Shown in pieces: positions 2,499 to 7,916 of a stretch of DNA of 10,812 nucleotides. Every line of letters starts with the position of its first letter. Position 1 is the stretch's first letter. The notes under the pieces were generated by a model, which was not told the DNA's origin, searched no databases, and saw only the letters and a program-made list of their open reading frames with translations. The translations under genes and the position numbers were made by a program. The DNA is taken from positions 1-10,812 of the forward strand of contig JAJYPZ010000018.1 in the NCBI GenBank assembly GCA_021794855.1. Reading direction: 5' to 3'. The DNA comes from Pseudomonadota bacterium (GTDB lineage: Bacteria; Pseudomonadota; Gammaproteobacteria; Burkholderiales; Sulfuriferulaceae).

Positions 2499-4616
2499 AT
2501 GACCGGCAAAAAATCGGAAACACCCGAAACTTCTTCGAATTCCAAGACAAAAGCAGCATTTACCGAACCGCCTCATACCGCCGCGAGCGGAGGTGAATGG
2601 CATCAAACCGGCGCCGCTACCGCACAGCCGCTTACGACCAATCAGGGAGTAACGATCGCCGACAATCAGAACTCCCTCAAAAGCCATGAACGCGGACCCG
2701 TACTGCTCGAAGATTTTATCCTGAGAGAAAAAATATTCCATTTCGATCACGAGCGCATACCCGAGCGCATCGTCCATGCCCGTGGCACCGGCGCGCATGG
2801 GGTGTTTGAACTGACCGACTCGCTGGAACAGTTCACGACTGCCGGGATTCTGACCGAAGTTGGCAAGCAAACGCCCGTATTTGCCCGCTTTTCCACTGTA
2901 ACCGGTGGTGCCGGATCTGTCGATACGCCTCGCGACGTACGAGGGTTTGCCGTCAAGTTTTACACCAGCCAAGGCAATTGGGATCTGGTTGGAAATAACA
3001 TACCTGTTTTTTTTATTCAGGATGCCATTAAATTTCCCGATTTGATCCATGCGGTAAAAATGGAACCGGATCGCGCCTTCCCCCAGGCTGCCACCGCCCA
3101 CGACACGTTCTGGGATTACATATCCGTCACCCCGGAATCCATGCATATGATCATGTGGATCATGTCTGATCGCGCACTGCCGAGATCTCTGGCAATGATG
3201 GAAGGATTCGGCATTCACAGCTTTCGTCTGATAAACAATGAAGGCAAATCGACCTTCGTAAAATACCACTGGCGTCCCAAATTCGGTTTGCAATCGACTA
3301 TTTGGGACGAAACCATGAAAATAACCGGCGCCGACCCGGATTTTCACCGGCGCGATTTCTTCGAAGCGATCGAAGCCGGACAATTTCCCGAATGGGAACT
3401 GGCCGTCCAGTTGTTCACGCAGGAAGAAGCCGATGAGCTGCCATTCGACCATCTCGATCCGACCAAGCTGATCCCCGAGGAACTGATACCGCTGAGAACC
3501 ATAGGCCGCATGACCCTGAATCGCTGGCCGGACAATTTTTTTGCCGAAACCGAACAGGTCGCATTCTGTCCGAGCAATATTCTCCCCGGCATGGACTTTT
3601 CCAACGATCCGTTATTGCAAGGACGGTTATTCTCCTATCTGGATACGCAACTGTCGCGGCTCGGTTCGCCCAATTTCAATCAGATCCCCGTCAATGCCCC
3701 TAAATGTCCGTTCGCCAACCAGCAACGCGACGGCCATATGCAAATGGCGCCCCAACCCGGACGGGTCGCATACGAACCGAATACCATGGCGCCCGAAGCC
3801 CCCAGAGAAGATTCCGTACACGGTTTTACTTCAGCCGGAGTCGAAGAAAACGGCCTCAAAAGCCGGATCAGGCCGGAAAGCTTTGCCGATCATTACAGCC
3901 AGGCGCGGCAATTTTTTCTCAGCCAGACAACTTATGAACAAGCGCATATCGCTTACGCACTGGTATTCGAGTTGTCTAAAGTCACTCAGGTATCCGTACG
4001 GACGGCGATAGTCGGACATTTACGCAATATCGACGAAAATCTGGCGGTTCGGGTCGCTCACGGACTTGCGCTGACCGGGCTCCCTCCGGCTCCTCCTTGC
4101 AGCGTCCCGGTGCAGGATTTGCCCGTGTCCCCGGCGTTGCAGTTGATAGGCAAAGCGAAAAATATTTTACTGGGACGGGTCATAGGCATTCTGATCGATA
4201 ACGGGTCCGACGGGGGTTTGGTCAACAAGCTCAAACAGGCGGCCCAGGATGCGGGAGCCAGGGTGAAACTGGTCGCTCCGAGAATTGGTACGGTCATCTA
4301 TGCAGACGGCAGTACAGTCGCCGCAGACGGACAGTTAGCGGGCACGCCGTCGGTGATTTTCGACGCCGTAGCGCTGATCTTATCCGCAGAATCGGTAAAA
4401 CTGCTGTGCAAGGAATCTGTCGCCATAGACTTTGTACGGGATGCCTACTCGCATCTCAAAGGCATTGCGGTGAATCGCGAAAGCGAACCCTTGCTGGAAG
4501 AAGCCGATGCAAGCAGTACGTTGGGCGTAACGAGCGCGGACAATATCGAACAATTCCTGAAATACGCCAAAACCCGGCAATGGGAACGCGAGAGCTGGCA
4601 TCGCACGCTGGCATAA
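2499..4616 (+). CDS. katE: Monofunctional haem catalase, large-subunit HPII/KatE type
   Basis: This 705-residue enzyme dismutates H2O2 to water and O2 in the cytoplasm. The catalytic His is His93 (RIPERIVHARGTGAHG) and the distal Asn is Asn166 (DLVGNNIPVFFIQD). The proximal haem ligand is Tyr380 with Arg376 (LLQGRLFSYLDTQLSRLG). The core catalase fold ends near residue 520. A flavodoxin-like, DJ-1/PfpI-type C-terminal domain follows (about 550-700, beginning LLGRVIGILIDNGSDGG), which marks clade 2 catalases; length is near the 753 residues of E. coli HPII. An oddity: HPII His392, which crosslinks to the haem-ligand Tyr415, is here Cys357 (VAFCPSN), exactly 23 residues before Tyr380 as in the fungal enzyme with a Cys-Tyr bond. 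The ribosome site GGAG is 9 bases upstream. The gene is convergent with sor and close enough to share a terminator region. Confidence 0.96.
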   Translation: MTGKKSETPETSSNSKTKAAFTEPPHTAASGGEWHQTGAATAQPLTTNQGVTIADNQNSLKSHERGPVLLEDFILREKIFHFDHERIPERIVHARGTGAHGVFELTDSLEQFTTAGILTEVGKQTPVFARFSTVTGGAGSVDTPRDVRGFAVKFYTSQGNWDLVGNNIPVFFIQDAIKFPDLIHAVKMEPDRAFPQAATAHDTFWDYISVTPESMHMIMWIMSDRALPRSLAMMEGFGIHSFRLINNEGKSTFVKYHWRPKFGLQSTIWDETMKITGADPDFHRRDFFEAIEAGQFPEWELAVQLFTQEEADELPFDHLDPTKLIPEELIPLRTIGRMTLNRWPDNFFAETEQVAFCPSNILPGMDFSNDPLLQGRLFSYLDTQLSRLGSPNFNQIPVNAPKCPFANQQRDGHMQMAPQPGRVAYEPNTMAPEAPREDSVHGFTSAGVEENGLKSRIRPESFADHYSQARQFFLSQTTYEQAHIAYALVFELSKVTQVSVRTAIVGHLRNIDENLAVRVAHGLALTGLPPAPPCSVPVQDLPVSPALQLIGKAKNILLGRVIGILIDNGSDGGLVNKLKQAAQDAGARVKLVAPRIGTVIYADGSTVAADGQLAGTPSVIFDAVALILSAESVKLLCKESVAIDFVRDAYSHLKGIAVNRESEPLLEEADASSTLGVTSADNIEQFLKYAKTRQWERESWHRTLA

Positions 4617-4625
4617 TTTTACTTT

Positions 4626-4670
4626 GCCGATACCGTCGATATGCGGCGGCATCGGCAGTATATTTATTTC
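4626..4670 (+). terminator. Candidate terminator between convergent katE and sor
   Basis: GCCGAT (4626-4631) pairs with ATCGGC (4651-4656). After one mismatch, CCG (4633-4635) pairs with CGG (4647-4649). A T-rich but interrupted tract (TATATTTATTTCTT) follows on the plus strand, starting nine bases after the katE stop. The T-tract overlaps the sor stop codon. On the minus strand the hairpin is followed by A-rich sequence, so it fits katE better than sor. Confidence 0.5.
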
Positions 4671-5602
4671 TTCAATTTTCTGCGCCACATACCCTGTTCC
4701 ATCATCGGAGCGAGAAACACATAATAAGGACCGCGATCAAGATGGGCGAGCACGCCATTATTATGAATCTGGCGCAATTCGTAATCCACCATCGTATAGC
4801 CTAATCCGACATGCGCGAAATCGCTGTTTTCCCATTCGATATGCACATAATACTGGGTTGGAGTTTGCGGCGGAATCGGTGGTTTGTCGTGGACACCATT
4901 GCCGTAATTGGTGTTATAAGCTGGTGGATTGGCGCCCAGTGTAGCCTTCAGATTACCTTCTGGATCCAGCTGAAAGGAGCCGATAGCCGAAACGCCGAAC
5001 TGTTTGAGCAACATCCAGCCGACCATGCCGGGAACATTGGTCCGCATCCAGCTCAGGGTTTCAATTACGCCCTCTTCAAACGCCTTTTCGTGCCCGGCCA
5101 TAACCCAGTGATCGCCCAACACGATAGCGCGTTGCCCGGTCAAGGCGATTTTCGGAATCCGTATCTTATTCTGGAACGCATCGCCGATGACTTCCGGCAC
5201 GTCGGTCATGGCATGCAGAAAAGGCAGATCGGACCGAATGATTTCATAATACGGTTCCCACGGTCCTTCGATCACCATATCCAGACAATGATGGCAAAGC
5301 TCATAAATGGTGTCGAAGTTGTCATGATGCATTTGCTCGTGGGAATGTACGTCTTTCCATACCGTATATTGGTACATTCCGATTGGATTGAGCGTTTCCC
5401 GCATATCGACAGCGCCGCCGCCATAGCGGCCGGCCATGGGATGTATCCCCGTCTGGATAAGCTGTTCGAAGCCCATGAATCCGGGGTTGGTAGCAGTCGT
5501 TATGCATACTTTCGGCCCGACTTTCATCATGGTCTCGTAACTTTCCGGCCGGTTGGCGATTTTCGCCACATTAATAGCGATAATGGGATTTTCGTTACTC
5601 AT
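4664..5602 (-). CDS. sor: Sulfur oxygenase reductase (SOR)
   Basis: This 312-residue soluble enzyme of the SOR family performs O2-dependent disproportionation of elemental sulfur to sulfite, thiosulfate and sulfide, without external cofactors, in a hollow 24-subunit cytoplasmic shell. From the chosen start the mononuclear iron ligands are His88, His92 and Glu116 (HSHEQMHHDN and EGPWEPYYEI). The sulfur-binding Cys33 is in VGPKVCITTATNPGF, and Cys103/Cys106 are in ELCHHCLDM. These match His86, His90, Glu114, Cys31, Cys101 and Cys104 of the Acidianus ambivalens enzyme with a constant offset of two. They are the only cysteines in the protein. The C-terminus (ELRQIH, APMMEQGMW) also matches, and length is close to the usual 308. 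ATG 5600-5602 has GGAG 6 bases upstream; the in-frame ATG at 5612-5614 has none. It is the last gene of the sqr operon, 80 bases after the DUF1641 gene. Confidence 0.95.
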   Translation of the reverse strand: MSNENPIIAINVAKIANRPESYETMMKVGPKVCITTATNPGFMGFEQLIQTGIHPMAGRYGGGAVDMRETLNPIGMYQYTVWKDVHSHEQMHHDNFDTIYELCHHCLDMVIEGPWEPYYEIIRSDLPFLHAMTDVPEVIGDAFQNKIRIPKIALTGQRAIVLGDHWVMAGHEKAFEEGVIETLSWMRTNVPGMVGWMLLKQFGVSAIGSFQLDPEGNLKATLGANPPAYNTNYGNGVHDKPPIPPQTPTQYYVHIEWENSDFAHVGLGYTMVDYELRQIHNNGVLAHLDRGPYYVFLAPMMEQGMWRRKLKK

Positions 5603-5682
5603 AGGATACTCCATAAATTAATTAAACAAACATTGCTTGACGAGCGCCCGTAAACGCCCAACGGTTCTTTTCTCCTCCAGGT

Positions 5683-6564
5683 TCAGTGCCGCACCGCGCC
5701 GTTCCGGGCTGGCGATGCGGGATGTTCCATATGTTGCGCGGTAACGATAATGCGCTGCAGGAATTCCTGTACTACCGGATCGCGCAGAAGCTTGACCAGA
5801 CCGACCAGACCGCCTTTCGGCGCATCGGGTTCGGCAATTTCGGTTGCCGACTGCTGCCACGCCTGCGCCAGCTCGTTCAGCATTTGCAGTAATGCCGGGA
5901 TCTGCGCCAGACCGCGCATACCTTCGAGCTGCTTGATCGTGCCTGCCGTCAGCGCATCCAGATCGCTGTTCTGCATGACCCCGGATAGCAATGACGAAAC
6001 GTCGCGCAGCCGTTTAAACGTACCATCGCGATGCAATGCGCCCAAGGTGCGGGCTGCGTCGAGCAATGCCGCATCCAGACCGGTCTGCTGCCATACGGCA
6101 CCCAGTTCAACCAGCCCTTCGGTGACACCTGCCGCCAGATTCTGTTGATAAAATTCGTTAATCGCCTGTAACGTATCGACAACATGCTGAAAAGCTGCCA
6201 TTTGCTGCCGTAAAGTCTCCCAGGAAATTTGTTGGCTCCATTGCAATACCGGGGGCAGCAAGGCTTGTAACTGATGCATGGATTCGGCAATAAACACAGC
6301 GTTATCGCGTATCCCGGCCAGCAGTCCGCTGTTGCGCAAGACAGTCAGGGTAGCGAGAGTTTCTTCCAGCAAATTCGGTAAATCGTGGCGTTCGTACAGG
6401 CAACCGGCGTTATGGACGGCATGGGTTAAGGGTTGAGCGAATTCGGGTTGCCATCCTTCAGCAAGACGCGCACCGATTTCGCCGAGAAATTTCAAACCTT
6501 CGAGTTGACGGTTATCCAGATTTTTAAGCCCGTCGGCGGCAGCCGGAGCGGATGAAGTATCCAT
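5683..6564 (-). CDS. DUF1641 domain protein, probable SQR-associated partner
   Basis: This 293-residue protein is almost entirely alpha-helical, without a signal peptide or membrane segment. The C-terminal part (about 250-280, PKGGLVGLVKLLRDPVVQEF) matches the DUF1641 pattern. Two upstream stretches resemble it and each other: TLTVLRNSGLLAGIRD (about 72-87) and TLGALHRDGTFKRLRD (about 173-188). This suggests internal repeats. DUF1641 proteins, such as Bacillus YrhD beside a formate dehydrogenase-like gene, tend to be encoded next to flavin or molybdenum oxidoreductases; no activity is established. Here the gene sits between sqr and sor, 65 bases after sqr. A docking, scaffold or regulatory subunit role is an inference. 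ATG 6562-6564 has AGGA 8 bases upstream. The ATG at 6568-6570 is too close to that site, and the more distal GTG at 6598-6600 lies inside a hairpin. Confidence 0.8.
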   Translation of the reverse strand: MDTSSAPAAADGLKNLDNRQLEGLKFLGEIGARLAEGWQPEFAQPLTHAVHNAGCLYERHDLPNLLEETLATLTVLRNSGLLAGIRDNAVFIAESMHQLQALLPPVLQWSQQISWETLRQQMAAFQHVVDTLQAINEFYQQNLAAGVTEGLVELGAVWQQTGLDAALLDAARTLGALHRDGTFKRLRDVSSLLSGVMQNSDLDALTAGTIKQLEGMRGLAQIPALLQMLNELAQAWQQSATEIAEPDAPKGGLVGLVKLLRDPVVQEFLQRIIVTAQHMEHPASPARNGAVRH

Positions 6565-6594
6565 AGACATATTCCTCGCAAGATAGGAATGAAG

Positions 6595-6619
6595 TGCCAC
6601 GGTTAGATCGACCGTGGCA
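6595..6619 (-). terminator. Intra-operon hairpin between sqr and the DUF1641 gene
   Basis: TGCCACGGT (6595-6603) and ACCGTGGCA (6611-6619) form a perfect 9-bp GC-rich stem with a 7-base loop, 10 bases after the sqr stop. Only weakly T-rich sequence (ACTTCATTCCTATCTT) follows on the minus strand. A leaky terminator, or a hairpin that protects the sqr mRNA 3' end, is more likely than full termination, because the next ribosome site follows within 30 bases. Confidence 0.5.
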
Positions 6620-6629
6620 TACGTACGCT

Positions 6630-7916
6630 TCAGGCAAACAGTTTTTCGCCGACCAGTTGCGAAAATTTCAAGCCCCAGTCGGGCATCTTGCCTTTGTTAC
6701 GGAAGAAAAGATTTTTGTATTGCATCTTGAGCAGAAACTGCGGATGACCCATTTTCAGGATTTGCTCCGTACCGCCGAACCAGGAATTGGAGCGGATATA
6801 AAACGCCTGACCACCGCCCATGTCGCCGATACAATATGTAACCGGTTCCAATTCCTGATCTGCTTCTTCGGCGCTCATCCGACCCAGATCCCTGGCGATC
6901 TGACGCGCCACAATCGTACATTGCTGATGTCCGATAGCACCGAGTTTAGGCACCGTAATGGCCGCTGCATCGCCTGCTGCGAAAACTTCGCGATACTTGG
7001 GATTGCGCATCAGCGTATCGGTGATGATGAAGCCTTCGCTATCGGAAATCGGCAACCCTTTCAAAAAGTCGTGTGCCGCCCAGTTAGGAAACAATATTTT
7101 CAGTTCTGCCGACAGATTCTGACCGTTGGCGAACTCGACCCCCTCCGCTGTTACCCGAGTGATATCGCCGGTTTTATTGACATAATTAAACCCCATGCCG
7201 GATGCAATCTTGAGCAATTGATTAACAACTTCTTCACCGGCATCTTCTGCTATCAGAGCGGCCGGAGTCGTCACCGTAATTTTGTCTGGCCCTCCCTTAC
7301 CGTGTTTTTTCATCCAGGTCGCCAGCGACAGCATGACTTCCACCGGAGGACCCTCGCATGCCGCTTCCGCCCGCGGAAAAGGATGATCGCCGTATAATTT
7401 GATATCTTTGGTGCCATCGCCCTGATGAAACAAAGCTGACCCGATGACCACAGGGCCGCCCTTATATTCGTTATGCAAAAAATGACGAAGTTTGTTACCG
7501 TAATAGAAATCGGTAATGGTGTGACCATGTTCGGCAAATCCTTCTATCTTGTCGAAAGCCAGCCGATTGCCTAACGCCACTACCAGATAATCGTATTGCA
7601 CCGACTCCGGAGCCGCGCCCGGTCGTTCGGTGGGCAAAAAATCGACGCGTTTACTGTCCACATCGATCGCTTCGACCTGACCTTGGATGAACTCGATCTC
7701 ATCGTCAGCCAGCGTATCGTGCAAAGGCATGCACAAGGTAGCCGCCGGATCGCGGTCTTCAAATACCTCAGCGGGAATATTCGGAATAAAAAGCAGAAAG
7801 TTTTTGCGATCCATAACGGTGATCCTGACCGAGTCACCGCAAAACCGACGGATATCCTGGGCACTGCCAAGACCGGCAAAGTTGCCGCCTAGTACTAACA
7901 CATGGGGTTTGATCAT
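6630..7916 (-). CDS. sqr: Sulfide:quinone oxidoreductase-type FAD flavoprotein
   Basis: This 428-residue, two-dinucleotide-fold flavoprotein would oxidise sulfide to polysulfide or sulfur and pass electrons to quinone at the membrane. The N-terminal FAD loop is VLVLGGNFAGLGSA (residues 7-20), and the second FAD contact is VFAAGDAAA (311-319). Two redox cysteines match Cys156 and Cys347 of Aquifex aeolicus SQR: Cys187 (AEAACEGPPVEV) and Cys362 (VTYCIGDMGG). The VPKLG motif near 322 matches VPKTG. The third cysteine (Aquifex Cys124) is absent, and about 20 extra residues precede Cys187. The C-terminus (FLLKMQYKNLFFRNKGKMPD) is the amphipathic membrane-binding part. An NDH-2 role is less likely because of the cysteines. 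ATG 7914-7916 has AGGAG 6 bases upstream. It is the first gene of the operon. Confidence 0.86.
   Translation of the reverse strand: MIKPHVLVLGGNFAGLGSAQDIRRFCGDSVRITVMDRKNFLLFIPNIPAEVFEDRDPAATLCMPLHDTLADDEIEFIQGQVEAIDVDSKRVDFLPTERPGAAPESVQYDYLVVALGNRLAFDKIEGFAEHGHTITDFYYGNKLRHFLHNEYKGGPVVIGSALFHQGDGTKDIKLYGDHPFPRAEAACEGPPVEVMLSLATWMKKHGKGGPDKITVTTPAALIAEDAGEEVVNQLLKIASGMGFNYVNKTGDITRVTAEGVEFANGQNLSAELKILFPNWAAHDFLKGLPISDSEGFIITDTLMRNPKYREVFAAGDAAAITVPKLGAIGHQQCTIVARQIARDLGRMSAEEADQELEPVTYCIGDMGGGQAFYIRSNSWFGGTEQILKMGHPQFLLKMQYKNLFFRNKGKMPDWGLKFSQLVGEKLFA

Follow-up and report, generated by a model that had tools for sequence, protein, structure and literature searches.

Introduction

Sulfur oxygenase reductase (SOR) is a cytoplasmic enzyme that acts on zero-valent sulfur and O2, forms sulfide, sulfite and thiosulfate and conserves no energy in doing so; the sulfide that it releases is toxic. 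How SOR-bearing bacteria recover this sulfide has so far largely been inferred from archaeal models. For the Sulfolobales, two papers set out a cycle in which a sulfide:quinone oxidoreductase (SQR) reoxidises SOR-made sulfide and polysulfide goes back to SOR (PMC11143483, PMC8551704), a loop called an 'energetic spiral' in the first of them, where Sqr is said to be present in all Sulfolobales with Sor (PMC11143483). Here we analyse a bacterial contig of 10,812 nucleotides from the Sulfuriferulaceae (JAJYPZ010000018.1; this whole stretch is referred to as the window) in which genes for an SQR-type flavoprotein (sqr), a DUF1641-like protein and SOR (sor) follow one another on the minus strand. 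We propose that the first two proteins probably form a two-subunit SQR, with the DUF1641-like protein as its quinone-coupling subunit, which would use the sulfide released by SOR in an energy-conserving loop.

Both halves of this idea have precedents. A formate dehydrogenase of Bacillus requires the DUF1641 protein ForE1 for its formate:menadione activity and most likely also for menaquinone binding (PMC8808070). In the hydrogenase Huc, the C-terminal region of HucM is reported to form a tube through which menaquinone is believed to travel 94 A to the enzyme (PMC10017518). The archaeal case for a flavoprotein-DUF1641 pairing consists of one published table for Ignicoccus, which lists Iho_0672 (DUF1641) and Iho_0673 (flavoprotein) (PMC3149612). 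That table is also the nearest approach to an SQR-DUF1641 unit or its link to SOR, of which we found no description in the accessible portions of the literature; one text containing both sqr and DUF1641 draws no link between them in those portions, and the reviews and studies on SOR describe no such gene unit there. A literature search that left most subscription journals outside its reach found no paper containing DUF1641 together with sulfur oxygenase reductase or sulfide quinone, and no description of the gene trio as a unit, as an earlier note on this DNA had supposed. The pairing of SOR with a DUF1641-coupled SQR thus seems to be undescribed.

The three-gene locus

In the direction of transcription, the locus comprises the following features:

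sqr, 6630..7916, minus strand: 428 aa; SQR-type flavoprotein with catalytic Cys187 and Cys362, and Thr135.
Gap between sqr and the DUF1641-like gene, 6565..6629, minus strand: 65 bases, containing a hairpin.
DUF1641-like gene, 5683..6564, minus strand: 293 aa; proposed membrane- and quinone-coupling subunit of SQR.
Gap before sor, 5603..5682, minus strand: 80 bases, free of terminator-like sites and carrying a GGAG ribosome-binding site.
sor, 4664..5602, minus strand: 312 aa; sulfur oxygenase reductase.

The open reading frames (ORFs) of the last two genes are longer (5683-6600 and 4664-5614, minus strand, the latter of 316 aa), and homologues set their starts at ATG 6564 and ATG 5602. With these starts the gaps come to exactly 65 and 80 bases, so that the layout given in the earlier note, three same-strand genes with this spacing, was correct; the identities it gave to the three products were likewise borne out, the catalytic residues of both SOR and SQR being kept. 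Plausible ribosome-binding sites lie upstream of all three genes. A simple scan of the window found promoter- and terminator-like sites no more often than chance would give; on the minus strand neither gap has one, and the region upstream of sqr also lacks them. Co-transcription of the three genes is predicted. The hairpin after sqr (6619-6595) has nine pairs, a 7-nt loop and no T run; the folding stability of the 65-base gap region is ordinary (z -1.45; 20 of 200 shuffles equally stable), and visual inspection of the corresponding gap in the SOR locus L001 shows a shorter, 7-pair hairpin. The window hairpin might act in RNA processing or in stabilising the transcript.

The SOR of the window matches Pfam PF07682 over its full length (residues 10-311, 444.9 bits) and the NCBIfam equivalog model with 282 bits, under the cut-off of 400. 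Six positions, C33, H88, H92, C103, C106 and E116 (numbered from ATG 5602; 37, 92, 96, 107, 110 and 120 in the 316-aa ORF), are conserved in every one of the 32 aligned SORs, and we take them to be the iron ligands and active-site cysteines of the Acidianus ambivalens enzyme. By its sequence the sor product is a sulfur oxygenase reductase, predicted to carry out O2-dependent sulfur disproportionation. Its closest solved relative is PDB 6qpa (E 2.9e-180), presumably from Thioalkalivibrio paradoxus; unlike the window, the Thioalkalivibrio SOR loci L023 and L027 hold no sqr-DUF1641 pair in the stretch examined. A search for sor on plasmids gave no match.

The sqr-DUF1641 pair as the steady unit

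The gene association is real and recurrent, and its steady unit is sqr with the DUF1641-like gene, which persists without SOR. Such a gene follows sqr in 28 of 30 SQR loci (several of which repeat loci counted elsewhere); in the other two the contig ends within sqr, and the missing end of sqr lies on another contig, where a DUF1641-like gene comes next. All eight SOR-less Acidithiobacillaceae genomes that have SQR retain the pair, as do three of the four SOR-less SQR genomes of a class sample, that is, 369 genomes evenly drawn from the class of G004, the Thiomonas genome of locus L004 (a class inferred to be Gammaproteobacteria in GTDB).

A DUF1641-like profile run against the class sample detected 31 matches, spread over 19 genomes. 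Ten strong matches (eight genomes) represent eight genes, each adjoining an sqr of the window's subfamily, and 16 of the 20 weaker matches examined (of 21) adjoin another, type III-like SQR gene. The latter is a different SQR type from that of the window, with about 50 bits between the two profiles: all ten that were scanned have both catalytic cysteines and match the NCBIfam type III SQR model best, below its curated cut-off, and the other six score 299-740 bits against a profile of the first ten. At these loci, in the class sample and in Bacillota, the DUF1641-like gene comes after sqr, mostly 9-14 bases away or overlapping, and, unlike in the window, the stretches examined hold no SOR gene. 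The Pfam DUF1641 model reaches E 0.001 in only two of ten partners scanned; the window family is clearly related to these partners (E 2.1e-13).

The earlier note had cast the DUF1641-like protein as a docking or regulatory partner within the trio. Persistence of the pair in SOR-less genomes speaks against this role, and since DUF1641-like proteins are also found with formate dehydrogenase, NDH-2 and type III-like SQR, a subunit of SQR is the likelier function. We rejected a docking protein specific to the trio on the same grounds, the relatives having other dehydrogenases as partners.

Among ten DUF1641 regions of Bacillota, chosen for ORFs that are mostly long, three adjoin SQR (L124, L125, L129) and seven do not; one neighbour is a transposase. 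The three are sqr-DUF1641 pairs in SOR-bearing Bacillota, distant from sor. At L124 (2537-4577), in an SOR-bearing Alicyclobacillus and outside its sor locus, a type III-like sqr, a DUF1641 gene and a third gene, presumably DsrE-like to judge by its appearance, stand in series. In Alicyclobacillales the best DUF1641 matches instead have molybdopterin dehydrogenase genes as neighbours (59 ORFs from 20 loci gave 16 hits). A 412-413 aa DUF1641-like variant without an SQR neighbour occurs at L150 (274-1512), L163 (868-2109) and L169 (736-1974), and two of these three genomes also carry the sqr-DUF1641 pair; a weak match at L161 lies where the contig end cuts the locus. On a Thioclava plasmid (L116, 7576-9263), an SQR 59% identical to that of the window stands behind cydAB and DUF302, among transposases and without DUF1641.

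These distributions bear on the best-surviving alternative, in which the SQR pair would detoxify the cytoplasmic sulfide made by SOR, with energy conservation and sulfur return being incidental. Retention of the pair in SOR-less genomes is what general sulfide removal would lead one to expect, and the Thioclava relative adjoins cydAB, which encodes a sulfide-resistant oxidase. However, any SQR reaction reduces quinone, so that energy would be conserved anyway, and the association with SOR is equally consistent with use of the sulfide; we regard detoxification as a possible account, if on the unlikely side.

Linkage of the pair to sor

A genome-contig scan with a 32-row SOR alignment yielded 63 SOR loci, 16 of which (L001-L005, L009, L010, L017, L029-L035, L037) carry the complete trio on one strand; counting the window, the order is sqr-DUF1641-sor in five cases and sor-sqr-DUF1641 in twelve. 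The earlier note had proposed looking for the linkage in relatives, and there it proves conserved and recurrent, in two gene orders. The arrangement varies: sor lies 1.3 kb from the pair in L010, with two small ORFs in between; L007 and L008 show sor-sqr with the contig ending within sqr; in L015 the pair is 7.3 kb from sor on the opposite strand; and in L139 sor is divergent from sqr-DUF1641. Around unpaired sor genes (103 of 118 ORFs at 31 loci, namely L015 and 30 of the 44 that lack the pair), no Pfam family occurs in more than four, and DUF1641 is absent among the matches listed (25 of 138 families). In some Acidithiobacillus loci a flavoprotein gene adjoins sor on the opposite strand (L013 and L015, 11018-12277; L010, 11015-12271), and the one scanned, from L013, is NDH-2-like in appearance.

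At the level of genomes the class sample, being unbiased, provides the stronger evidence. It holds the window's SQR subfamily in nine genomes and SOR in seven, both at E up to 1e-100, and a remote SOR in four more. SOR and the SQR subfamily occur together in five of the 369 genomes (P 4.7e-8; 1e-6 with all 11 SORs), and sor and sqr are neighbours in all five. The co-occurrence suggested in the earlier note is thus far above chance, but it is not universal. Among 29 Acidithiobacillaceae, SQR is found in 20 (in one as a fragment only) and SOR in 12, with SQR alone in eight and neither in nine; all 12 SOR genomes carry SQR (Fisher P 0.003). Across 150 genomes of the order of G004 the SQR subfamily is present in G004 only, and of 23 SOR genomes chosen from the 63 loci, 17 have SQR, two a remote relative and four none.

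The trio might instead be a sulfur-gene island passed among acidophiles, SOR and the pair having no working link. Distances between the proteins correlate over 18 loci, as they would after joint transfer (Mantel r 0.85 for SQR-SOR, 0.88 for SQR-DUF1641 and 0.78 for DUF1641-SOR; 0 of 2000 permutations as high), and these sequence distances show a shared history, whatever its cause. We nevertheless think an island unlikely: the two same-strand orders and the divergent L139 point to repeated joining, as do at least six linkage changes, four of them forced by starred branches, on the SOR tree (a quick tree of 60 rows, four fragments dropped), and in the Acidiferrobacter-like loci the trio genes lie 0-10 bases apart or overlap.

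The DUF1641-like protein and its relatives

The window protein matches Pfam PF07849 with 14.4 bits (E 0.036), under the cut-off of 21, and at E <=0.1 the model matches eight of 16 members of the family alignment, the window included (best 1.3e-6); on this sequence evidence its DUF1641 membership is a family-level one only. The DUF1641 signature GGLVGLVKLLRDPVVQ corresponds to residues 251-266. A 41-row profile of the window family finds YjlC as its best PDB match (9snk, E 2.2e-5; 9pxk, E 4.4e-5), followed by unrelated helical repeats at E 0.0019 and worse, and relates to the ForE type with E 1e-5 and probability 82; YjlC is matched more strongly by the type III-like SQR partners (1.6e-9) than by the window family. 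The depositors named YjlC 'NDH-2 membrane coupling protein' (9pxk). In the same entries the window SQR profile matches YjlD (E 2.6e-8), so that the two window proteins resemble both subunits of one solved complex. The main text of PMC10090944, which we had guessed to be the source of a YjlC-YjlD crosslinking model, contains neither protein. A match to HucM (E 2.9e-5) is reached only through the type III-like SQR partners, none leading directly to the window family. Two proteins of the type III-partner kind (L161, 1477-2196; L155, 541-1368) contain internal helical repeats, near-identical in L161, and the length of DUF1641-like proteins may vary by repeat number. The structure model of the window protein is all helical, at low confidence (pLDDT 52.3, pTM 0.24).

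The fast evolution of this protein (mean pairwise identity 0.29 vs 0.71 for SQR) would accord with a role other than quinone coupling, as a sulfur carrier, chaperone or regulator, and so would the type III-like pair at L124, which is followed by the gene that looks DsrE-like. But the window protein has only one cysteine, and ForE and YjlC, the relatives that have been tested or solved, link dehydrogenases to quinone or to the membrane; we hold such a role, too, to be doubtful. A bolder arrangement, in which the DUF1641-like protein would be a quinone-filled, HucM-like stalk, allowing SQR to operate at a distance from the membrane, and SQR would dock on the SOR shell, exchanging sulfide and polysulfide without their entering the cytosol, strikes us as improbable. 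If true, it would be a cytoplasmic oxygenase compartment wired to the quinone pool, a sulfur-respiring assembly.

The SQR flavoprotein

The closest solved sequence to the window SQR is the type V SQR of A. ambivalens (PDB 3h8i/3h8l; residues 5-411 of 428, 1.5e-48), which is only about 30% identical and likewise has two catalytic cysteines. C187 and C362 of the window, aligned to C178 and C350 of the polysulfide site, are invariant in 47 of 47 rows; the top 16 entries of a structure comparison are all SQRs, and in its fold the protein resembles SQR more than it does NDH-2 or flavocytochrome c. The column of the FAD-linking cysteine, presumably Cys129 in A. ambivalens, holds Thr135 in the window and no cysteine in any of the 47 rows, and with this residue missing we dropped an assignment to type V. 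An NCBIfam scan gave no match above any cut-off, the best being the type III model (selenoprotein subtype; 65.7 bits vs a cut-off of 525). The protein looks like an enzyme of the sulfide:quinone oxidoreductase type, and sulfide-dependent quinone reduction is predicted. A rule by which DUF1641-paired SQRs would lack the FAD-linking cysteine and unpaired ones (L116, L130, L131) possess it was rejected: L176, of the window's subfamily, lacks both the cysteine and an adjacent DUF1641 gene.

Action on another substrate, such as persulfide or NADH, would suit the distance from the A. ambivalens enzyme, the missing FAD-linking cysteine and the scores below NCBIfam cut-offs, but with both catalytic cysteines invariant and only SQRs among the top structure matches it is very improbable.

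Surroundings of the locus

A catalase gene (2499-4616, plus strand) is convergent with sor and ends 47 bases from it. Farther away, holin-like, DUF883 and PRC-barrel genes stand in series on the minus strand (685-2082), and a regulator-like gene with a cyclic-nucleotide-binding product lies close by (1-477). Sulfuriferula or metagenome-assembled genomes of Burkholderiales are the closest relatives with a name; SOR is reported absent in four published Sulfuriferula isolates (PMC12285272).

Discussion

Based on these comparisons we can outline how a two-subunit SQR might work with SOR. SOR would form sulfide, sulfite and thiosulfate in the cytoplasm from zero-valent sulfur and O2. The flavoprotein would oxidise sulfide on one face of its FAD, Cys187 and Cys362 carrying the growing polysulfide, and the DUF1641-like protein, whose role we model on ForE of the menaquinone-linked formate dehydrogenase and on YjlC of NDH-2, would bind it in a complex, hold it at the cytoplasmic face of the membrane and deliver quinone to the other FAD face. 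The pair would thereby turn SOR-released sulfide into quinol and polysulfide, the latter reusable by SOR, and each round of this presumed flux would conserve energy. SOR would have been joined repeatedly to the pair as its sulfide source. A sulfide-sulfur cycle between SOR and SQR, as the earlier note envisaged, is plausible, with the published Sulfolobales model as precedent; its description of the module as closed is not, since SOR also makes sulfite and thiosulfate, which would leave.

Several observations weigh against this proposal. The usual description of SQR has it bind both membrane and quinone unaided, and some SQRs have no DUF1641 neighbour (L176, the Thioclava SQR of L116 and the remoter L130 and L131). 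No sqr-DUF1641 pair is present in 44 of the 63 SOR loci, within stretches that were in some cases short; two of the seven SOR genomes of the class sample (G384, G496) lack the SQR subfamily; and sor lies within 5 kb of the pair in only five of the 12 Acidithiobacillaceae SOR genomes. The hairpin in the gap behind sqr might uncouple expression. In the poor model of the DUF1641-like protein (pLDDT 52) neither a tube nor a quinone site is visible, and HucM ranks under a designed armadillo protein, which hints at background from helical repeats, although its best single domain scores better. Finally, in one report, sulfate production by Sulfolobus acidocaldarius rose only modestly when sor, tqoAB and sqr of S. 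tokodaii were introduced (PMC11323534).

The trio nevertheless offers a small, testable genetic unit, with Thiomonas bhubaneswarensis and Acidithiobacillus ferrianus as cultured relatives. The findings also extend DUF1641 coupling subunits, so far tested or solved for formate dehydrogenase and NDH-2, to at least two kinds of SQR, which suggests that a separate protein for coupling to quinone may also serve other enzymes regarded as membrane proteins of one subunit.

Among known systems, YjlC-YjlD, presumably of Bacillus subtilis, is like the window pair in joining a flavoprotein of SQR fold to a DUF1641 protein, and differs in being an NADH dehydrogenase rather than an SQR and in having no SOR (PDB 9pxk, 9pxl, 9pxm, 9snk). 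In ForC-ForE the gene of a DUF1641 subunit likewise adjoins that of a quinone-reducing dehydrogenase requiring it (PMC8808070; ForE1, PDB 8rqz), but this is a molybdenum enzyme with a catalytic subunit unrelated to SQR, and ForE is shorter than the window protein. Huc, a hydrogenase and not an SQR, has in HucM a membrane-associated helical subunit said to bring menaquinone to a cytoplasmic enzyme (PMC10017518; PDB 7uus), and its C-terminal region weakly matches the DUF1641-like partners of type III-like SQR. Compared with the Sulfolobales cycle, the bacterial trio would make the loop a genetic unit and add to it a coupling subunit.

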